Positions 1,508 through 7,566 of a stretch of DNA of 8,521 nt are shown piece after piece. The stretch comes from DRGV01 sp018903055 [NCBI: bacterium] (GTDB lineage: Bacteria; UBP18; UBA7526), in NCBI GenBank assembly GCA_018903055.1, contig JAHIPW010000031.1, positions 1 to 8,521 on the forward strand, written 5' to 3'. The notes under the pieces are model-generated. The model was not told the origin of the DNA. It saw nothing but the letters and a program-made list of their open reading frames with translations, and did no database searches. The translations under genes and the position numbers were made by a program. The first letter of the stretch is position 1. Every line of letters begins with the position of its first letter.

Positions 1508-2791
1508 ATGACCAGAGATTACCGGAAGGGAATGCAATTTCTAGCTGATGCTCGGGAGCGTTTGGATATGGTGGCCAAGAAGTTAAAACTGGATTCAGGA
1601 CTGGTGGATAAACTCAAGTTTCCTAAGCGGGCCTTGATCGTCTCCGTCCCGGTCAAGATGGATAATGGGCGTTTAAAAGTATTCACTGGCTATCGGGTGC
1701 AGCATAACCTGGATCGGGGTCCAGGAAAGGGCGGAATAAGGTATCATCCTGAGGTTACCTTGGAAGAAGTTACTACCTTAGCCATGCTCATGACCTGGAA
1801 GTGCGCCGTAGTGAATATTCCCTTTGGAGGAGCAAAAGGGGGAATATACTGTAACCCCAGGGAGATGTCTTTAAAAGAACTGGAGGGCTTGACTAGAAGG
1901 TTTACCTATGAGATTATGATGATGATCGGTCCGGAGAAGGATATTCCGGCTCCCGATGTCTATACCAATCCCCAGACCATGTCCTGGATGATGGATACTT
2001 ATAGTATGCATCAGGGGTTTTCTGTTCCCGGGGTGGTTACGGGAAAGCCCGTTGACCTGGGAGGTTCTAAAGGGAGGCTTGATGCTACGGGAAGAGGGGT
2101 AATGTTTGCTACTCGCGAGGGGTTAAAACACCTTGGCCTTTCCTTGAAAGGAGCAACGGTCGCTATCCAGGGATTCGGAAATGTAGGAAGCGCCAGCGCC
2201 AGGTTGTTGCGCGAGGCAGGAGCAAAGATTATAGCGGTCAGTGATATCAGTGGTGGCCTGTTCGATCCGGAAGGGATAGATATTCCTTCCCTGATAGCCT
2301 ATATTAAGAAAAGTAAGGATAAACTCCTCAAAGGATTTAAAGGACCCAAGTTCGTTAGCAATCCTAAGAGAGCGAATGAGAAACTATTTAGTCTAAAGGT
2401 CGATGTTCTCATTCCCGCTGCCTTAGAGAACCAGATCACCAGTGAGAATGCCCATCGCATAAGAGCAAGAATGATTACTGAGGCCGCCAATGGCCCTATT
2501 ACTCCCAGAGCAGATAAGATATTAGCCAAGAAGAAAGTCTTCGTCATTCCTGATATCCTGGCCAATGCCGGTGGAGTGGTGGTATCCTACTTCGAATGGG
2601 TCCAGGACACCCAGGCCCTCTTCTGGAAGGAGAAGGAGGTCAATACCAAGTTAGAGGAGATCATGACCGAGGCCTTCTATGATGTATTGCGCACTTCAAA
2701 GAAACATAGAGTAGATATGAGGATGGCCGCCTATATGCTTGCCGTCTCAAGGGTGGCAGAGGCTACAAGACTACGAGGAATCTATCCTTAA
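1508..2791 (+). CDS. gdhA: Glutamate dehydrogenase (Glu/Leu/Phe/Val family)
   Basis: This 427-residue enzyme interconverts glutamate with 2-oxoglutarate and ammonia using NAD(P)H in the cytoplasm. I chose ATG 1508 because AGGAGG at 1496-1501 lies six bases before it; the in-frame ATG at 1493 overlaps that site. The substrate and catalytic residues are present: K74 (in GKGG), K98, K110 (in GGAKGG) and D150 (in PAPD). These keep the spacing of K89, K113, K125 and D165 in the Clostridium symbiosum enzyme. TGRGV at 194-198 and the dinucleotide-binding GFGNVG at 222-227 follow. Length and order are normal for the hexameric bacterial and archaeal enzymes. The preceding gene also makes or serves glutamate metabolism, and dapL downstream consumes glutamate. 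Cofactor choice cannot be read safely from the sequence. Confidence 0.96.
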   Translation: MTRDYRKGMQFLADARERLDMVAKKLKLDSGLVDKLKFPKRALIVSVPVKMDNGRLKVFTGYRVQHNLDRGPGKGGIRYHPEVTLEEVTTLAMLMTWKCAVVNIPFGGAKGGIYCNPREMSLKELEGLTRRFTYEIMMMIGPEKDIPAPDVYTNPQTMSWMMDTYSMHQGFSVPGVVTGKPVDLGGSKGRLDATGRGVMFATREGLKHLGLSLKGATVAIQGFGNVGSASARLLREAGAKIIAVSDISGGLFDPEGIDIPSLIAYIKKSKDKLLKGFKGPKFVSNPKRANEKLFSLKVDVLIPAALENQITSENAHRIRARMITEAANGPITPRADKILAKKKVFVIPDILANAGGVVVSYFEWVQDTQALFWKEKEVNTKLEEIMTEAFYDVLRTSKKHRVDMRMAAYMLAVSRVAEATRLRGIYP

Positions 2792-2877
2792 CACGGATTA
2801 CCCAATGCGCTTCGCTTGCATTGGAGAGAGCATAAATATTAAGCATTGGCACGGATTGATTACGGATTCACACAGAT
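2792..2877 (-). repeat. Interspersed hairpin repeat, copy A (inverted)
   Basis: This segment matches the reverse complement of 5315-5404 over nearly its whole length with small gaps. Its core is a 7-bp stem, CCAATGC at 2802-2808 with GCATTGG at 2818-2824. The loop between them contains GCTTCGC, the reverse complement of the GCGAAGC mini-hairpin. CACGGATT-type decamers flank the core. Confidence 0.8.
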
Positions 2878-2879
2878 TT

Positions 2880-2921
2880 ATCCGTGCTCATCCGTGTTGT
2901 AATCTGTGCTAATCTGTGCAT
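2880..2921 (+). repeat. ATCTGTG/ATCCGTG decamer array before dapF
   Basis: Four units start with ATCCGTG or ATCTGTG at 2880, 2890, 2902 and 2912, spaced 10, 12 and 10 bases. The last unit ends 24 bases before the dapF start. The same kind of array precedes the DUF5674 gene, dapL and the transketolase N gene. Just upstream (2850-2877) the units run in the opposite direction, so the two halves face each other. Confidence 0.75.
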
Positions 2922-2945
2922 AAAGAGATTTACAAAGAGAAAGAG

Positions 2946-3863
2946 ATGATTAAGTTTACTAAAATGTCTGCCAGCGGGAATGACTTTGTTGTGATAGATA
3001 ATCGGGAAAAGCAGATCCTGGATACTGGATCCTGGATGCTGGATTTTGTGAGAAAAGTTTGCAAGCGAAAGATGGGTATAGGGGCGGATGGGGTGCTTTT
3101 AATAGAAAGTTCTTCTAAGGCCGATTTCAAGATGAGGGTCTTCAATCCCGATGGGGGAGAGGTCGAGATGTGTGGTAATGGAGCAAGATGTGTAGCATTG
3201 TATGAGTCCAAAGTCTCCCTCGGGGATCTCGAGTCCCCTCGGGACGAGAGGCAAGGTCCCCCGAAGGACAAGCCTACGGGGCAGGCAAAGTCCAAAGTCC
3301 AAGGTCGAAACCCGAAACCCGAAACCCGAAACCCGAAACTCAAAATCGAAACCAGGGCGGGGATTTTGGAAGCAGAGGTTGCCTCTGGTGATAGAGTAAA
3401 AATAAAAATGGGTGAACCCACCGACACCAGATTGAATTTTAATCTTTTAGTAGACAATAAAGAATATAAGGTCCATAGTATCAACACCGGTGTTCCCCAT
3501 GTTGTTCTCTTTACAGAGGATTTAGAAAAAGCAAAAGTAAAAGAAATAGGAAAAAAGATCAGGTATCACCAGAAATTTGCCCCTGCGGGAACGAATGTCA
3601 ATTTTATAAAAGTAAGGGATAAGGATTCCCTTGATATCAGGACCTATGAGAGGGGGGTAGAGGATGAGACCTTAGCCTGTGGGACAGGGGCCTGCGCCAG
3701 TGCCATCGTCTCCCATCTATTGGGCAGAACAAAATCTCCCACTAAGATGTATACCAAAAGCGGTTCTATCCTGACAATATACTTTGATTCCTCTGATGCC
3801 AAGATTACCAATCTTTATTTGGAGGGGGATGCGGAAATTATCTATCAAGGAGAGCTAGTTTAG
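2946..3863 (+). CDS. dapF: Diaminopimelate epimerase with repeat-derived insertions
   Basis: DapF converts LL-diaminopimelate to the meso form, used for lysine and peptidoglycan, without a cofactor and with two cysteines. Both are here: C76 in MCGNGARC and C245 in ACGTGAC. GNDFVVID at 11-18, GIGADG at 44-49 and the substrate-binding ER at 235-236 are also present. I chose ATG 2946 because the protein then begins like other DapF proteins (MIKFTKM); a purine-rich GAGAAAGAG precedes it, a weak ribosome site. The in-frame GTG at 2916 lies in repeat DNA. At 305 residues it is longer than the usual 270-285. About 34 extra residues lie between the NGARC motif and the KIETRAG strand (residues 88-131), encoded by repeat DNA. 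A second repeat encodes residues 24-33. All catalytic motifs are intact, so it is probably active. Confidence 0.95.
   Translation: MIKFTKMSASGNDFVVIDNREKQILDTGSWMLDFVRKVCKRKMGIGADGVLLIESSSKADFKMRVFNPDGGEVEMCGNGARCVALYESKVSLGDLESPRDERQGPPKDKPTGQAKSKVQGRNPKPETRNPKLKIETRAGILEAEVASGDRVKIKMGEPTDTRLNFNLLVDNKEYKVHSINTGVPHVVLFTEDLEKAKVKEIGKKIRYHQKFAPAGTNVNFIKVRDKDSLDIRTYERGVEDETLACGTGACASAIVSHLLGRTKSPTKMYTKSGSILTIYFDSSDAKITNLYLEGDAEIIYQGELV
3017..3044 (+). repeat. Four CTGGAT heptamers inside dapF
   Basis: Four heptamers (CCTGGAT, ACTGGAT, CCTGGAT, GCTGGAT) follow one another without gaps. They encode about nine residues between the N-terminal strand and the helix before GIGADG. The region is only about four residues longer than in E. 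coli DapF, so the repeat seems to have largely replaced ordinary sequence. Confidence 0.8.
3205..3351 (+). repeat. Heptamer array with nested GC-rich element inside dapF
   Basis: From 3289 to 3351 nine heptamers run in one register: two AGTCCAA, one GGTCGAA, four ACCCGAA, then ACTCAAA and ATCGAAA. One further AGTCCAA plus a partial unit is at 3205-3215. A GC-rich piece of about 72 bases (3216-3287) separates the two parts. It contains three small palindromes: GTCCC/GGGAC (3233-3245), GTCC/GGAC (3256-3269) and GCCT/AGGC (3272-3286). The whole stretch keeps the dapF frame open and encodes the 44-residue region at 88-131. Confidence 0.8.
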
Positions 3864-3897
3864 CGTAACAAGATGTAAAAAGGGGAAAGCTAGACTT

Positions 3898-4028
3898 AAT
3901 TTCCAATTCCCAATTTCTAATTTCCAATGAAATTTTCAATGCCAGAATGTCAAAAATTTTTAGAAATTAGACATTAAAACATTAGACATTTTGTTAGAAA
4001 TTGGATATTAGGTATTAGAAATTTTGGG
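3898..4028. repeat. Opposed AT-rich heptamer arrays after dapF
   Basis: Bases 3898-3932 hold five heptamers of AATTTCC type. Bases 3994-4028 hold heptamers of TTAGAAA type, the same family in the opposite orientation. An 11-bp perfect inverted repeat (CCAATTTCTAA at 3910-3920, TTAGAAATTGG at 3994-4004) joins them. No gene is visible between dapF and 4226. Confidence 0.7.
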
Positions 4029-4057
4029 TATTTTCATTTTCCTACTTGCTCCAGGGA

Positions 4058-4090
4058 GCCTATCTTATTAGTACAGATAAACCTATGTTA
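4058..4090 (+). repeat. 33-bp dispersed repeat, copy 1
   Basis: The segment matches 4524-4556 at 31 of 33 positions. Both copies end in CCTATGTTA and then diverge completely. A palindrome follows here: TTATATGA at 4088-4095 pairs with TCATATAA at 4106-4113 around a 10-base AT loop. Confidence 0.75.
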
Positions 4091-4124
4091 TATGAAAAAA
4101 TAAAATCATATAAAAAAGCAACCT

Positions 4125-4182
4125 AGCTGATCTTGTTCTGCCGTTAAAGCGGCTCCACAAGGCAGCTGATTCTAGCCGTTAA
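4125..4182. repeat. Imperfect direct repeat upstream of small basic gene
   Basis: AGCTGATC...TGCCGTTAA at 4125-4147 recurs as AGCTGATT...AGCCGTTAA at 4164-4182 with a four-base gap. CTGCC (4138-4142) can pair with GGCAG (4161-4165). The repeat lies just before a good -10 sequence, so it could be an operator; no regulator is identifiable. Confidence 0.4.
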
Positions 4183-4193
4183 GTTTTTATAAT
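4165..4193 (+). promoter_or_regulatory. Putative promoter of the 30-residue basic protein
   Basis: A perfect TATAAT -10 element stands at 4188-4193. No good -35 hexamer is found 16-18 bases upstream; the best windows read GCTGAT or CTGATT. The expected start of transcription near 4200 would leave a leader of about 25 bases with a strong ribosome site. Confidence 0.4.
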
Positions 4194-4225
4194 TTCAAAC
4201 TTTTCGAAAGGGAGGTGAAGAAGTT

Positions 4226-4318
4226 ATGGGAGATAAAGGTAAGAAGGATAGGGATAAGCAATCAAGACAAACACAAGCAAAAAAGGACGCAAAAAAGAAA
4301 AAACAAGAAAGACGATAG
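4226..4318 (+). CDS. Small lysine-rich basic protein, 30 residues
   Basis: The frame encodes MGDKGKKDRDK and continues with lysine, glutamine and arginine to a TAG at 4316-4318. More than half of the residues are charged, and no membrane segment or cysteine is present. GGAGGTG at 4211-4217 lies eight bases before the ATG, one of the strongest ribosome sites in the window, and a TATAAT lies 32 bases upstream of the ATG. I recall similar very short MGDKGKKDK-type basic proteins annotated as hypothetical in other bacteria, but cannot confirm this here. The composition would suit nucleic-acid or ribosome contact; that is only a guess. The low-complexity A-rich sequence is the main reason for doubt. 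Confidence 0.6.
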   Translation: MGDKGKKDRDKQSRQTQAKKDAKKKKQERR

Positions 4319-4331
4319 CTCGAAAATCAGT

Positions 4332-4424
4332 TTGACAGTGTGACAGTTAGGCAGTGGGACAGTTGCAGGCTACAGGCTGCAAGATACAAGAAACAAGATA
4401 CAAGTTACAGGTTGTAAGATACAT
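4332..4424 (+). repeat. Octamer then heptamer arrays
   Basis: Four octamers ending in CAGT run from 4332 to 4363. They pass directly into nine degenerate heptamers from 4362 to 4424, of types GTTGCAG, GCTACAG, GATACAA and GAAACAA. No gene is visible in 4319-4610. Confidence 0.75.
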
Positions 4425-4461
4425 GCTTGTGACAATAATACAGTAGAGTGTGAATAGCTTT

Positions 4462-4531
4462 ATCTGTGCTAATCCGTGTCATTTAATCCGTGCTAATCTG
4501 TGAATATTGCCGAACAAAGTGAGGCCTATCT
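4462..4531 (+). repeat. Decamer array plus duplicated dapL leader, left copy
   Basis: Units starting ATCTGTG or ATCCGTG lie at 4462, 4472, 4486 and 4496, spaced 10, 14 and 10 bases. The first 31 bases (4462-4492) are identical to 5315-5345. Bases 4495-4531 match 5397-5433, the dapL leader with its ribosome site, at 35 of 37 positions. Here no gene start follows the ribosome-site-like GTGAGG. The palindrome GCCGAACAAAGTGAGGC is at 4509-4525. Confidence 0.85.
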
Positions 4532-4556
4532 TATCAGGACAGATAAACCTATGTTA
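4524..4556 (+). repeat. 33-bp dispersed repeat, copy 2
   Basis: This is the second copy of 4058-4090, with two mismatches. Identity ends at GTTA, inside the GTTAGGC that begins the two-gene cassette. TTATC (4531-4535) and GATAA (4542-4546) form a small inverted repeat. Confidence 0.75.
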
Positions 4557-4610
4557 GGCACGTTCAATGAGAAATATGCACCGTAAATCAATGTTGAGGT
4601 AACAAATAGA

Positions 4611-4946
4611 ATGATTCACATTATACGCACTCGGGCTACCAAAGAACAACTGGACGAAATGCTCCAGACTCTTTGCGCCTATGTCAAATTGGCAGTGGAT
4701 ATTCAGCGTGGTATCCTCGCAGGCGGCGGCCCGCTTCATGCGGACTGTGAATCTGCCCTGCTTGAAGATGGCAGTAAACAGGAAGATATTTGGGGAGCAG
4801 ATTGGAATCCACAAACCCAACAGGTGACTTATGAAGCGCTCATTAATATCCGTCCGCGTCAGAACAATCGGTCAATGGATATTCTTGATCCAACCGTTCG
4901 AGAGCGCGTTACTCAAATTACTCAGCAGTTGTTAGAGGGCGTATGA
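4611..4946 (+). CDS. DUF5674-like protein, first gene of cassette
   Basis: This 111-residue protein resembles the uncharacterised DUF5674 family as I remember it, found in cyanobacteria and candidate phyla. The matching features are VDIQRGILAGGG at 29-40, HAD at 43-45, LEDGSKQEDIWG at 51-62 and INIRPRQNNRSM at 79-89. It has no signal peptide or membrane segment, so it is likely cytoplasmic. The conserved His, Asp, Glu and Arg residues hint at a catalytic or ligand-binding site, but no activity is known to me. TGAGGT at 4595-4600 lies ten bases before the ATG. Its TGA overlaps the next ATG as ATGA, implying translational coupling. All eight arginines use CGN codons, unlike neighbouring genes, which suggests transfer from another genome. 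Confidence 0.8.
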   Translation: MIHIIRTRATKEQLDEMLQTLCAYVKLAVDIQRGILAGGGPLHADCESALLEDGSKQEDIWGADWNPQTQQVTYEALINIRPRQNNRSMDILDPTVRERVTQITQQLLEGV

Positions 4947-5290
4947 GAGATTGGACTCTTATCCGAGAACGATATTTACGCGACGAGCTCCCGATTCGTC
5001 TGGGCGGGTTGGCGGCGAATTTGGCTCGTATCAAGTCCTTTTCGACCCATGCTGCGAATTATGAAGTGGTCGAAAGCCTGTTGGACGAAAGCAAGTTTTT
5101 CATTGAGTGGACAGCTATTGACGCGGACCTGAACACGGCGGCGGAGTTGGTTGAGTTACAAATTCAGTTGGCTCGCTGGCAACGCACCTGGGCAAGCATT
5201 TGGGCAGACCCCGCACAACGACTGAAGATCGTTGAAGAGTCACGTCTCTGGTCAGAACGTGTCCTGGACATGTCAGGTCTGTTGCGCTAA
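4943..5290 (+). CDS. Hypothetical tryptophan-rich partner of DUF5674
   Basis: This 115-residue protein starts inside the stop of the preceding gene (ATGA overlap), with AGAGGG at 4934-4939 as a possible ribosome site. I recognise no named domain. It has six tryptophans (4, 56, 79, 84, 87, 103), a conserved-looking LPIRLGGLAANLARI at 16-30 and LLDESKFFIEWT at 46-57. The rest, 61-115, looks helical and amphipathic (AELVELQIQLARWQ, then SERVLDMSGLL). I have an unverified memory of similar proteins in cyanobacterial genomes. No transmembrane segment or signal is evident. The coupling suggests that it works with the DUF5674 protein, perhaps in a complex; a toxin-antitoxin-like role is possible but nothing in the sequence shows it. 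Confidence 0.75.
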   Translation: MRDWTLIRERYLRDELPIRLGGLAANLARIKSFSTHAANYEVVESLLDESKFFIEWTAIDADLNTAAELVELQIQLARWQRTWASIWADPAQRLKIVEESRLWSERVLDMSGLLR

Positions 5291-5314
5291 CGCTATGTGC
5301 CTAACAACTCAATT

Positions 5315-5433
5315 ATCTGTGCTAATCCGTGTCATTTAATCCGTGTCAATGCTTAATCATTTATGCTCTCTAGAATGCCAGCGAAGCGCATTCTGTAATC
5401 TGTGAAGATTGCCGAACAAAGTGAGGCTTATCT
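5315..5433 (+). repeat. Decamer array, hairpin repeat copy B and dapL leader, right copy
   Basis: Bases 5315-5345 repeat 4462-4492 exactly, and 5397-5433 repeat 4495-4531 at 35 of 37. Between them lie about 51 extra bases with the hairpin AGAATGC (5372-5378) / GCATTCT (5388-5394). Its loop contains GCGAAGC at 5381-5387. The whole of 5315-5404 matches 2792-2877 on the other strand. The palindrome GCCGAACAAAGTGAGGC at 5411-5427 holds the dapL ribosome site. Confidence 0.85.
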
Positions 5434-6597
5434 ATGATTAAAAAAGCAGAAAGAATAGAAAAACTACCCGTTTATCTCTTTGCTCAGATTGATAGGGCGA
5501 AGAGGGAAGCCATTGCCAAAGGTGTAGATATTATTGACTTTGGAGTGGGAGATCCAGACCTGCCTACCCCTAATCATATCATTGAGGCATTATCCAGAGC
5601 AGCCAAGGACCCTAAGAATCATAGATACCCTTCCTATGAAGGGATGCTTAAATTCCGTGAAGCGGCTGCCTCCTGGTATAAGAAGAGATTTCAGGTAGAA
5701 TTGGATCCGGAGAGAGAGGTCCTCACTCTAATCGGAGCCAAGGAAGGGATAGGTCATATTCCTTTGGCCTTTATAAATGAAGGAGATATTGCTCTCATTC
5801 CCGATCCGGGCTATCCGGTATATCGGGCAGGTGTGACCCTTGCTGGTGGAATTCCCCATTCCATACCGTTATTGAAAGAGAATAATTTTCTACCGGATTT
5901 GGGAGCCATCGATCGAAAGATTGCCAAGAAAGTAAAATTAATCTTTCTGAATTATCCCAATAATCCCACCTCTGCTGTAGCAGGTAAGGACTTTTTCAAG
6001 AAAGTGGTTGCATTTGCTAAAGAAAATGATGTTATTGTCTGTCATGACGCTACTTATTCCGAGCTGGGTTATGATGGATATAAACCCCCCAGTTTTCTGG
6101 AAGTAGAGGGCGCTAAAGAGGTGGGAATAGAGTTCCACTCCCTATCCAAAACCTATAATATGACTGGTTGGAGGATAGGCTTTGCCGTAGGAAATAGTGA
6201 TATCCTGGCTGGATTGGGGAGCATAAAGACCAATGTCGATTCCGGTGTCTTCCAGGCCATTCAGTATGCAGGCATTGAGGCCTTAGCTGGTCCGCAGGAG
6301 TGCATTGCTCAAAATGTCGCCACCTATAAAGAAAGAAGGGATATCTTAGTAGAAGGATTGAATAGGCTTGGCTGGGGTGTTTCCCTGCCAAAGGTGGCCT
6401 TCTATGCCTGGATTCCGGTGCCCCAAAGATATACTTCAGCGAAGCTCTGCGAGGTCTTACTGGAGAAGTGTGGAATCGTCATGACCCCGGGGAATGGCTT
6501 TGGTAAATCTGGCGAAGGTTATATCCGGGCGGCTTTAACAGTCGATAAGTCAAGAATAGAAGAAGCAGTAAGAAGAATAGAGAATTTAAAACTTTAA
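5434..6597 (+). CDS. dapL: LL-diaminopimelate aminotransferase
   Basis: DapL is a PLP enzyme that makes LL-diaminopimelate from tetrahydrodipicolinate with glutamate as amino donor, bypassing the acylated lysine branches. The 387 residues have the normal fold-type I aminotransferase layout: GVGDPDLPTP at 37-46, NYPNNPT at 173-179, the PLP-contacting D205 and Y208 (in HDATY), the Schiff-base lysine K239 in SLSKTYNMTGWR, and the carboxylate-binding R365 near the C terminus. The ATG has GTGAGG at 5421-5426 seven bases upstream, within a repeat palindrome. The product is the substrate of DapF, encoded 1.57 kb upstream beyond the accessory stretch, and glutamate comes from the upstream enzymes. 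A related aminotransferase specificity (aspartate or alanine) cannot be fully excluded, but the dapF context supports DapL. Confidence 0.9.
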   Translation: MIKKAERIEKLPVYLFAQIDRAKREAIAKGVDIIDFGVGDPDLPTPNHIIEALSRAAKDPKNHRYPSYEGMLKFREAAASWYKKRFQVELDPEREVLTLIGAKEGIGHIPLAFINEGDIALIPDPGYPVYRAGVTLAGGIPHSIPLLKENNFLPDLGAIDRKIAKKVKLIFLNYPNNPTSAVAGKDFFKKVVAFAKENDVIVCHDATYSELGYDGYKPPSFLEVEGAKEVGIEFHSLSKTYNMTGWRIGFAVGNSDILAGLGSIKTNVDSGVFQAIQYAGIEALAGPQECIAQNVATYKERRDILVEGLNRLGWGVSLPKVAFYAWIPVPQRYTSAKLCEVLLEKCGIVMTPGNGFGKSGEGYIRAALTVDKSRIEEAVRRIENLKL

Positions 6598-6702: not shown

Positions 6703-7566
6703 ATGGAGAAGGGGAAACCGAATATTAAGAAACTAGAAAAAGAAGCGACAGAGATCAGGAAGGACATTATCAAGATGCTGGGTGAAGCAGGAAGCGGCCA
6801 TCCCGGCGGTTCTTTATCATCTGTTGAGATCCTGACCGGACTTTATTATTATAAAATGCGTCATAACCCCAAGAAGCCAGATTGGCCGGATAGGGACAGG
6901 TTCATCCTTTCCAAAGGGCATATCTGCCCCGCTCTATATACCGTTATGGCCAGATGTGGCTATTTTCCGAAAGAGGAATTAATGACATTGAGGAAGTTAC
7001 ATTCCCGGTTGCAGGGACATCCCCATATGCTTTATCTTCCTGGATTAGAGACCTCCTGCGGTTCATTGGGTCAAGGATTATCTGTCGCCAACGGCATCGC
7101 CCTGGGGGCTAGGTTGGACAAGAAGGATTATCGGACCTACTGTCTCTTAGGAGATGGGGAGACGGATGAGGGTCAGGTCTGGGAGGCGGCCATGACCGCC
7201 AGTCATTATAAGTTGGATAACCTCTGTGCCATCATCGATAGAAATAGACTCCAGATCGATGGCTTTACCGAGGATGTCATGAAGTTAGAGTCGGTAAGAG
7301 ATAAGTGGGCGGCCTTTGGCTGGCATGTCATCGAGATAGATGGCCATAGTATAAAGGAAGTAATGGATGCCTATGATGAGGCGGAAGAGTCGAAGGGAAA
7401 GCCCACTATGATTGTTGCCCATACTATAAAAGGGAAAGGGGTCTCTTTCATGGAGGATAAGGCAGAATGGCATGGCGTGGCACCCAAGGGAGAACAGATA
7501 GAACTGGCCTTAAAGGAATTGAATATGAAACCAACTAAAGAACAATTAGAAGAAGCGGAGGGATAG
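6703..7566 (+). CDS. tkt: Transketolase, N-terminal (ThDP-binding) subunit
   Basis: Transketolase moves two-carbon units between sugar phosphates in the non-oxidative pentose phosphate pathway. This 287-residue half binds the diphosphate of thiamine diphosphate: HPGGSLS at 33-39, SKGH at 70-73, and the GDGE...N motif with GDG at 150-152 and N181. I chose ATG 6703 because AGGAGG at 6691-6696 lies six bases before it; the in-frame GTG at 6667 is in repeat DNA. The gene ends where the N-terminal domain of a single-chain transketolase would end, and the other half is encoded next, so the enzyme is of the two-subunit type known from many anaerobes and archaea. All motifs are intact. Confidence 0.95.
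   Translation: MEKGKPNIKKLEKEATEIRKDIIKMLGEAGSGHPGGSLSSVEILTGLYYYKMRHNPKKPDWPDRDRFILSKGHICPALYTVMARCGYFPKEELMTLRKLHSRLQGHPHMLYLPGLETSCGSLGQGLSVANGIALGARLDKKDYRTYCLLGDGETDEGQVWEAAMTASHYKLDNLCAIIDRNRLQIDGFTEDVMKLESVRDKWAAFGWHVIEIDGHSIKEVMDAYDEAEESKGKPTMIVAHTIKGKGVSFMEDKAEWHGVAPKGEQIELALKELNMKPTKEQLEEAEG

Follow-up and report, generated by a model that had tools for sequence, protein, structure and literature searches.

Among the described systems that bear comparison with the locus considered here is the CALIN, defined in the accessible text of PMC9668308 as at least two attC sites less than 4 kb apart without intI, and said there to outnumber integrase-bearing integrons in bacteria. Likewise relevant are unusual cassettes in which attC is truncated or replaced by attI sequence. 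The consulted parts of PMC12901181, citing Partridge 2009 for these classes, count 96 and 14 such cassettes in 1,685 class 1 and 57 class 2 integrons, respectively, that is, a minority and in mobile integrons, and also describe the extrahelical bases, core consensus and crossover point of attC. In a literature search, conducted on titles and mostly without subscription papers, none of the titles listed concerns repeated attI-like sites in an array that lacks an integrase.

The window, by which we mean the whole analysed stretch of 8,521 nucleotides, derives from an assembly (G000) of 1,085,295 bases in 191 contigs, 85% complete. It was compared with five relatives from the same family (G001–G005), of which G001 belongs to the genus of G000 and G003, G004 and G005 to another; the six family assemblies are 53–93% complete, and among the 60 genomes used the relatedness classes pass from 'own', 'same genus' and 'same family' directly to 'same domain'. 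The part of interest lies between dapF, encoding diaminopimelate epimerase (2946–3863, plus strand; PF01678, E 9e-53; start and stop verified), and an aminotransferase gene (5434–6597, plus strand; PF00155) which we, like the initial annotation, take to be dapL, the name being given without a family search. We consider it very probable that the two-gene unit in this gap (about 4554–5313) is an integron-type cassette whose attC has been cut after its first arm, and which sits at an attI-like site that the family carries in several copies. The best reading of the locus as a whole is that it represents the worn end of an integrase-less, CALIN-like cassette array with this attI-like site in several copies.

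The unit is enclosed by a perfect 10-bp inverted repeat, TGTTAGGCAC at 4552–4561 and GTGCCTAACA at 5297–5306, 735 nt apart. The initial annotation had proposed both this repeat around two coupled genes, with coordinates and reading frames that we could verify, and its agreement with the integron core consensus, which holds for both ends, GTTAGGC fitting GTTRRRY and GCCTAAC fitting RYYYAAC. The 5' end of the cassette lies at the G^TT of the core GTTAGGC (4553–4559, plus strand), within the left copy of the repeat, and its 3' RYYYAAC end is complementary to its own 5' end (GTGCCTAAC versus TTAGGCAC). The 10-mer of the repeat is found at these two places only in the entire assembly, and since its backward control likewise yields two matches, the genome count is by itself little informative. 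Similarly, when 4300–5600 was shuffled 300 times with dinucleotide composition preserved, an inverted pair of 10 bp with a spacing of 300 nt or more arose in 34% of the shuffles, whereas a pair containing GTTRRRY arose in 1 of 300, so that taken by itself the repeat says little and the weight lies on its match to the core.

On the right, only the first arm of an attC is left, as had been claimed: the arm GTGCCTAACAACTCAAT (5297–5313, plus strand; R'' = GCCTAAC, 5299–5305) lacks its second arm and is followed directly by a dispersed repeat of the host, which extends on the plus strand from about 5314 to 5433, up to the start of dapL. Another copy of the dispersed repeat (...GCCGAACAAAGTGAGGCCTATCT; 4460–4531, plus strand) lies on the left of the unit. 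Queries covering 5280–5434 and 4440–4560 found at least 36 and at least 33 matches in the genome, themselves included, among the best 40 of 57 and of 46 candidates scored, respectively. The repeat, TAATCCGTGCTAATCTGTG...GCCGAACAAAGTGAGGCTTATCT, is also present at 2792–2922 of the window, and some of its copies seem to end near gene starts. The stretch CTAACAACTCAAT of the remaining arm is common to an attC-like site of G003, and the first 16 bases of the arm, GTGCCTAACAACTCAA, occur at three places in IMG/VR contigs, one within an attC-like site of the contig L197 and two in other sequence. Read along the open reading frames of L197 the match is the reverse complement, that is, the opposite arm, and the best stem of that site does not favour an extra base on the 5' side (5 versus 6). 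A lone arm running into host repeat, and the recurrence of its sequence in other attC-like sites, suggest that the attC was cut after R'' plus about eight bases. No complete attC (R''-L''...L'-R' with extrahelical bases) was found in the window, and we therefore class the unit as a truncated cassette by descent and not as an intact member. As a separate observation, positions 940–1460 of L197 hold consecutive cassette-like units bounded by GTTAGGCAC and GCACCTAAC cores.

On the left, the cassette is preceded by CAGATAAACCTATG^TT, a sequence present a second time in the window. The leader copy adjoining the cassette (4525–4553, plus strand) ends at the crossover G (4553), has its start overlapped by the left-hand dispersed repeat, and contains CAGATAAACCTATGTT exactly at 4540–4555; these 16 bases, which run into the core, recur at 4074–4089, a repetition that escaped the first reading, as part of another leader copy (...TTATTAGTACAGATAAACCTATG; 4059–4087, plus strand). 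The latter is followed by TTATATGAAAAAAT, as is found in the segment of G005 that follows its first cassette, and is possibly an emptied site. Between the two leaders lies a degenerate remnant (4088–4445, plus strand), in which no attC passed our scanner and whose one open reading frame, of 30 amino acids (4226–4318), has no Pfam match. Within the family CAGATAAACCTATGTT occurs exactly in ten copies (two in G000, two in G003, four plus one in G004, one in G005) and in none of the four non-family genomes searched; with up to two mismatches, forward and backward patterns alike give chance matches. All but one of these ten copies are located between dapF and dapL; the exception, on contig 34 of G004, precedes a small gene. 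Inexact copies add one in G005, with one mismatch and right after the dapF stop, and two in G004, of which one follows the dapF stop and has an additional base and the other differs by a single mismatch. Behind each leader stands GTT (GGT in the mismatched copy of G005), beyond which the sequences differ. One genome has at least five attI-like sites between dapF and dapL, and such sites are present in two genera. The leader 16-mer matched 48 viral contigs, in none with RRRY next, which we take as chance. An attI has its G^TT crossover beside an intI gene and is bound by the integrase; a GTT junction is present here, but since no intI exceeded the cut-off in the family assemblies we term the site only 'attI-like'.

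The gap between the two dap genes measures 1,570 bp in the window, 2,540 bp in G003, 7,125 bp in G004 and 2,298 bp in G005. Its left neighbour is dapF in G002–G005 also, and the product of the dapL-like gene is 91%, 89% and 89% identical to its homologues in G003, G004 and G005, respectively. In these three relatives the gap is filled with genes other than the pair found in the window, in G002 the two dap genes are only 56 bp apart with no cassette between them, and G001, the 53% complete assembly, has no close match to either dap gene and falls outside this comparison. The dapF gene itself contains an in-frame, low-complexity repeat-like stretch (CCCGAAACCCGAAA..., 3195–3345), as does a GltD-like gene of the window (CGCAGGTCGCAGGTCG..., about 310–385); visual comparison places another short repeat-like stretch, of different sequence, at this position of dapF in G003, G004 and G005, and an N-run in G002, an apparent hotspot of in-frame repeat insertion.

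One and the same site is followed by different cassettes in G003, G004 and G005. The cargo directly behind the leader includes TIR (E 1e-15) and CBS (2e-34) proteins in G004 and, in G003, a nucleotidyltransferase with a PF08780 partner (3.5e-14 and 2e-27), a pair encoded on the reverse strand of L106 at 3613–4336 which presumably resembles a known type of toxin–antitoxin system; a RES-domain protein is found one cassette further on, and 11 of the 18 reading frames scanned in the relatives have no family at E 0.001. In G004 four of the six leaders are followed by a single cassette or by as many as three in a row, closed by a trailer, TTATCTGMCATTTTACA... (in one case TTATCTAC...), and behind the remaining two the next leader follows without a trailer between. 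With variants, the trailer is also the last sequence before dapL in G003, G004 and G005; in G000 it was not found at up to three mismatches. The simplest reconstruction is that one ancestral leader^trailer site was duplicated with the intervening host repeat, a duplication that could have proceeded via attI by attI recombination, reportedly described by Hansson in 1997, or via homologous recombination between the repeats. A second place for cassettes was noticed on contig 34 of G004 (L133, oriented 2326–3937), with a leader and TTAGCCAG/CTGGCTAA ends, between neighbours that we take to be recO-like and glycyl-tRNA-synthetase-like; it has an attC-like hairpin by eye, which the final scanner did not report.

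If these units are cassettes, each is expected to open, directly behind G^TT, with a reverse-complemented version of the R'' in its own attC. This expectation was examined for 13 leader-defined starts (six in the G004 gap, two each in G003, G005 and the window, one on contig 34 of G004). Seven of the 13, the TTAGGCAC/GTGCCTAA pair of the window among them, recur reverse-complemented over 7–9 bases in their own cassette, as against 11 of 156 swapped pairings (at least 7 bases), and the summed score of 85 compares with 62.3 (sd 4.5) on permutation, none of 20,000 permutations reaching it; the other six starts, including that of a cassette common to G003 and G004, have no 7-bp partner.

These data bear directly on the view, put forward in the initial annotation, of a lone cassette captured at a secondary site and then trimmed. 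The integron-type nature of the unit, its horizontal acquisition and the trimming of attC to the first arm are supported; the lone capture and the secondary site are not. A single insertion at a chance, attG-like chromosomal site, of the kind that PMC12901181 describes in the portion consulted, would account for the one intact two-gene cassette of the window and for an assembly with no integrase over the cut-off, but we regard it as unlikely, as the window has the leader twice and, in three relatives from another genus, this leader stands in the corresponding gap before cassettes of other content, which is the pattern of a repeatedly used, lineage-specific site.

If the units in the relatives are cassettes of an integron-type array, their ends should be attC-like, and candidates for attC are indeed present in the gaps of the relatives. 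A generic attC covariance model was attempted from 16 sites (59–143 nt) in 20 integrase regions, several of which lie close to a contig end; these sites aligned too raggedly, and a home-made scanner, which looks for R'' and R' together with a stem of L'' and L' whose 5' arm carries one additional base, was used in its place. A first version was too strict and a second found little beyond a single locus. Many family sites had been seen by eye before the rules of the final version were fixed, so its results are not blind. In the four gaps it reports ten matches on the cassette strand (nine in G004, one in G005, none in G003 or the window) and one on the opposite strand; 40 dinucleotide shuffles gave 1.2 on average and 4 at most, and 20,229 bases of flanking sequence gave none. 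Control loci gave mixed results (plus versus minus strand: L177 12/6, L182 3/0, L189 0/1, L185 2/3). Examples of attC-like sites in G004 are at 6873, 7515, 8112, 8793, 9792 and 10394; the scanner matches at 4531 and 9872 are away from cassette ends and look like chance, and that at 4969 is a junction with leader sequence. Among 13 candidates picked by eye for stem comparison, 11 have a best stem in which the 5' arm carries the extra base and one has it on the 3' arm, an asymmetry shared by sites that lie close to integron integrases in other genomes; the stems of three by-eye candidates, at 9161 and 11370 in G004 and 3813 in G003, are weak. Two of the G004 sites had no match in plasmids. Going by this home-made scanner, the G004 gap would come under the cluster definition of a CALIN, and the gaps of the window and G003 would not.

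One question then is which enzyme could have served these sites. The search for an IntI tyrosine recombinase suggested with the initial annotation was made in 290 genomes with the profile TIGR02249 (cut-off 265 bits), which was exceeded in 38 of them and in none of the six family genomes (assemblies 53–93% complete), so that no complete integron, which includes such an intI, was found in these six assemblies. The tyrosine recombinases of the family comprise open frames of 271–353 codons and one short fragment, score at most 89.7 bits in one piece, and are presumably XerC and XerD; the same loose integrase search also gave matches in each of 14 control genomes, none of them exceeding the cut-off. 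Attachment sites resembling attC, with no integrase over the cut-off, make the array CALIN-like. It is conceivable that XerC/XerD or a related tyrosine recombinase loads the cassettes instead, for which the low scores of the family's enzymes against the integron-integrase cut-off would speak, as would the uninterrupted site formed by leader and trailer, CAGATAA-ACCTATG-TTATCTG, a 7-bp inverted repeat around the crossover that we take to be somewhat like a dif site; however, the cassette-specific complementarity of R' and R'' and the asymmetric attC-like hairpins are marks of integrons, and we give this possibility little credence.

The cargo of the window itself consists of a DUF5674 gene (111 amino acids; 4611–4946, plus strand; PF18924, E 5e-43) and a partner gene (115 amino acids; 4943–5290, plus strand) that share four bases (4943–4946). 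The partner is predicted to be all-helical and has no family in Pfam, NCBIfam or PADLOC, nothing beyond chance being found against Pfam. The mean pLDDT of the AlphaFold2 models is 87.6 for the DUF5674 protein and 95.9 for the partner; against the PDB, Foldseek gave no match to either at E <= 0.001, and sequence search gave none for one protein and three chance-level matches for the other, the best a designed bundle (E 0.04). The literature search found no paper with the word DUF5674. Relatives of the partner gene occupy 64 loci scattered across many phyla (best-segment identity 34–75%), in 41 of which it adjoins a DUF5674 gene, and 17 of 31 intact pairs have the 4-bp overlap. The partner gene is also found in 41 of 72,556 plasmid records, 17 of the 41 conjugative, the plasmids being all cyanobacterial among the 20 of 41 matches listed; there is none in phage records. 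A toxin–antitoxin role is a guess, prompted by the small size and coupling of the two genes and by their occurrence on plasmids.

A recount of arginine codons gives the very figures claimed at the outset, CGN in 8 + 11 = 19 of 20 in the pair versus 4 of 19 in dapL, with 16/36, 12/30, 5/17, 3/12 and 2/10 in the other five resident genes. The partner gene is absent from the other 59 genomes searched, and this, together with the other cassettes of G003–G005 and the empty gap of G002, speaks against vertical inheritance of the pair at this position, an inheritance that the initial annotation had named as contrary to its proposal. The other contrary outcome, absence of the repeat from homologous loci, did occur in part: an inverted repeat of at least 8 bp within about 150 bp of the pair is found in 0 of the 64 partner-gene loci, which by itself is no argument against the window copy. 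The scanner made 57 matches in the 554,793 bases of these loci, with a match near the pair in two of 64, both weak. The pair thus reached a cassette here, and these counts suggest that DUF5674–partner genes are not usually cassette-borne. In L005 an attC was suspected by eye downstream of the pair, but the scanner did not bear this out. In L008, a deltaproteobacterial MAG, a possible attC lies directly upstream of a DUF5674 pair (about 4591–4641), and L009 has a stretch similar to it. That no site-specific recombination took place, and that a transferred gene pair merely lies among dispersed repeats within a chance inverted repeat, would be compatible with the 34% of shuffles, the dispersed repeats on both sides and the plasmid records, but is very improbable given the single core-bearing repeat in 300 shuffles and relatives with a shared leader and cassette-specific repeats.

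We therefore return to the truncated cassette at an attI-like site of the family. Comparison of the genomes shows, at the level of sequence, a shared leader with differing genes behind it, R'/R'' complementarity, attC-like hairpins in one relative above all, and no integrase over the cut-off; from this we infer the action of an integrase, the order of events and the immobility of the cassette. Some integrase, whether lost, unassembled or from outside, would have joined a circular cassette at the G^TT of the attI-like CAGATAAACCTATG^TT; later, the attC would have been cut after R'' and about eight bases and fused to the dispersed repeat beside dapL, by which the cassette was probably fixed in place. 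A more tentative proposal, which we put forward as possible though rather speculative, is that of a lineage-specific platform without an integrase of its own, in which tandem attI-like sites between dapF and dapL would each be loaded separately by outside or lost integrases, such that sites and cassettes alternate and do not form one array behind one attI.

The locus places integron-type cassettes in an isolated uncultured lineage, and displays an alternating layout of sites and cassettes of which mobile integrons are reported to have only an unusual minority. Through the loss of half its attC a cassette has here probably become fixed next to conserved biosynthesis genes, and the locus makes testable now the notion that hosts without an integrase serve as lasting docks for cassettes. 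The DUF5674 (PF18924) gene and its helical partner are found elsewhere in the same order (41 of 64 loci, many phyla, cyanobacterial plasmids), there mostly without attC marks, unlike the window copy. In its fixed chromosomal place and diverse cassettes the array resembles a sedentary chromosomal integron, from which it differs in that no intI was found, the cassettes are few and the attC sites heterogeneous. The window keeps only R'' and a few bases, as do the truncated-attC cassettes among the Partridge 2009 classes, and junctions in G004 (4969) and G003 (about 2966) are akin to delta-attI cassettes, an R''-like stretch being followed by leader sequence; the minimum delta-attI2 motif AATAAAATGTTRRRY, as given in the part of PMC12901181 consulted, resembles GATAAACCTATGTTRRRY, a likeness spotted after the fact. 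Unlike in those classes, the leaders recur here within the gap in all four genomes with an array, and the setting is chromosomal and without integrase. Finally, the G004 gap, with several attC-like sites, different genes and no integrase over the cut-off, resembles a CALIN, but here an attI-like leader has been kept and is repeated before most groups of cassettes, and the part represented by the window is without a complete attC.
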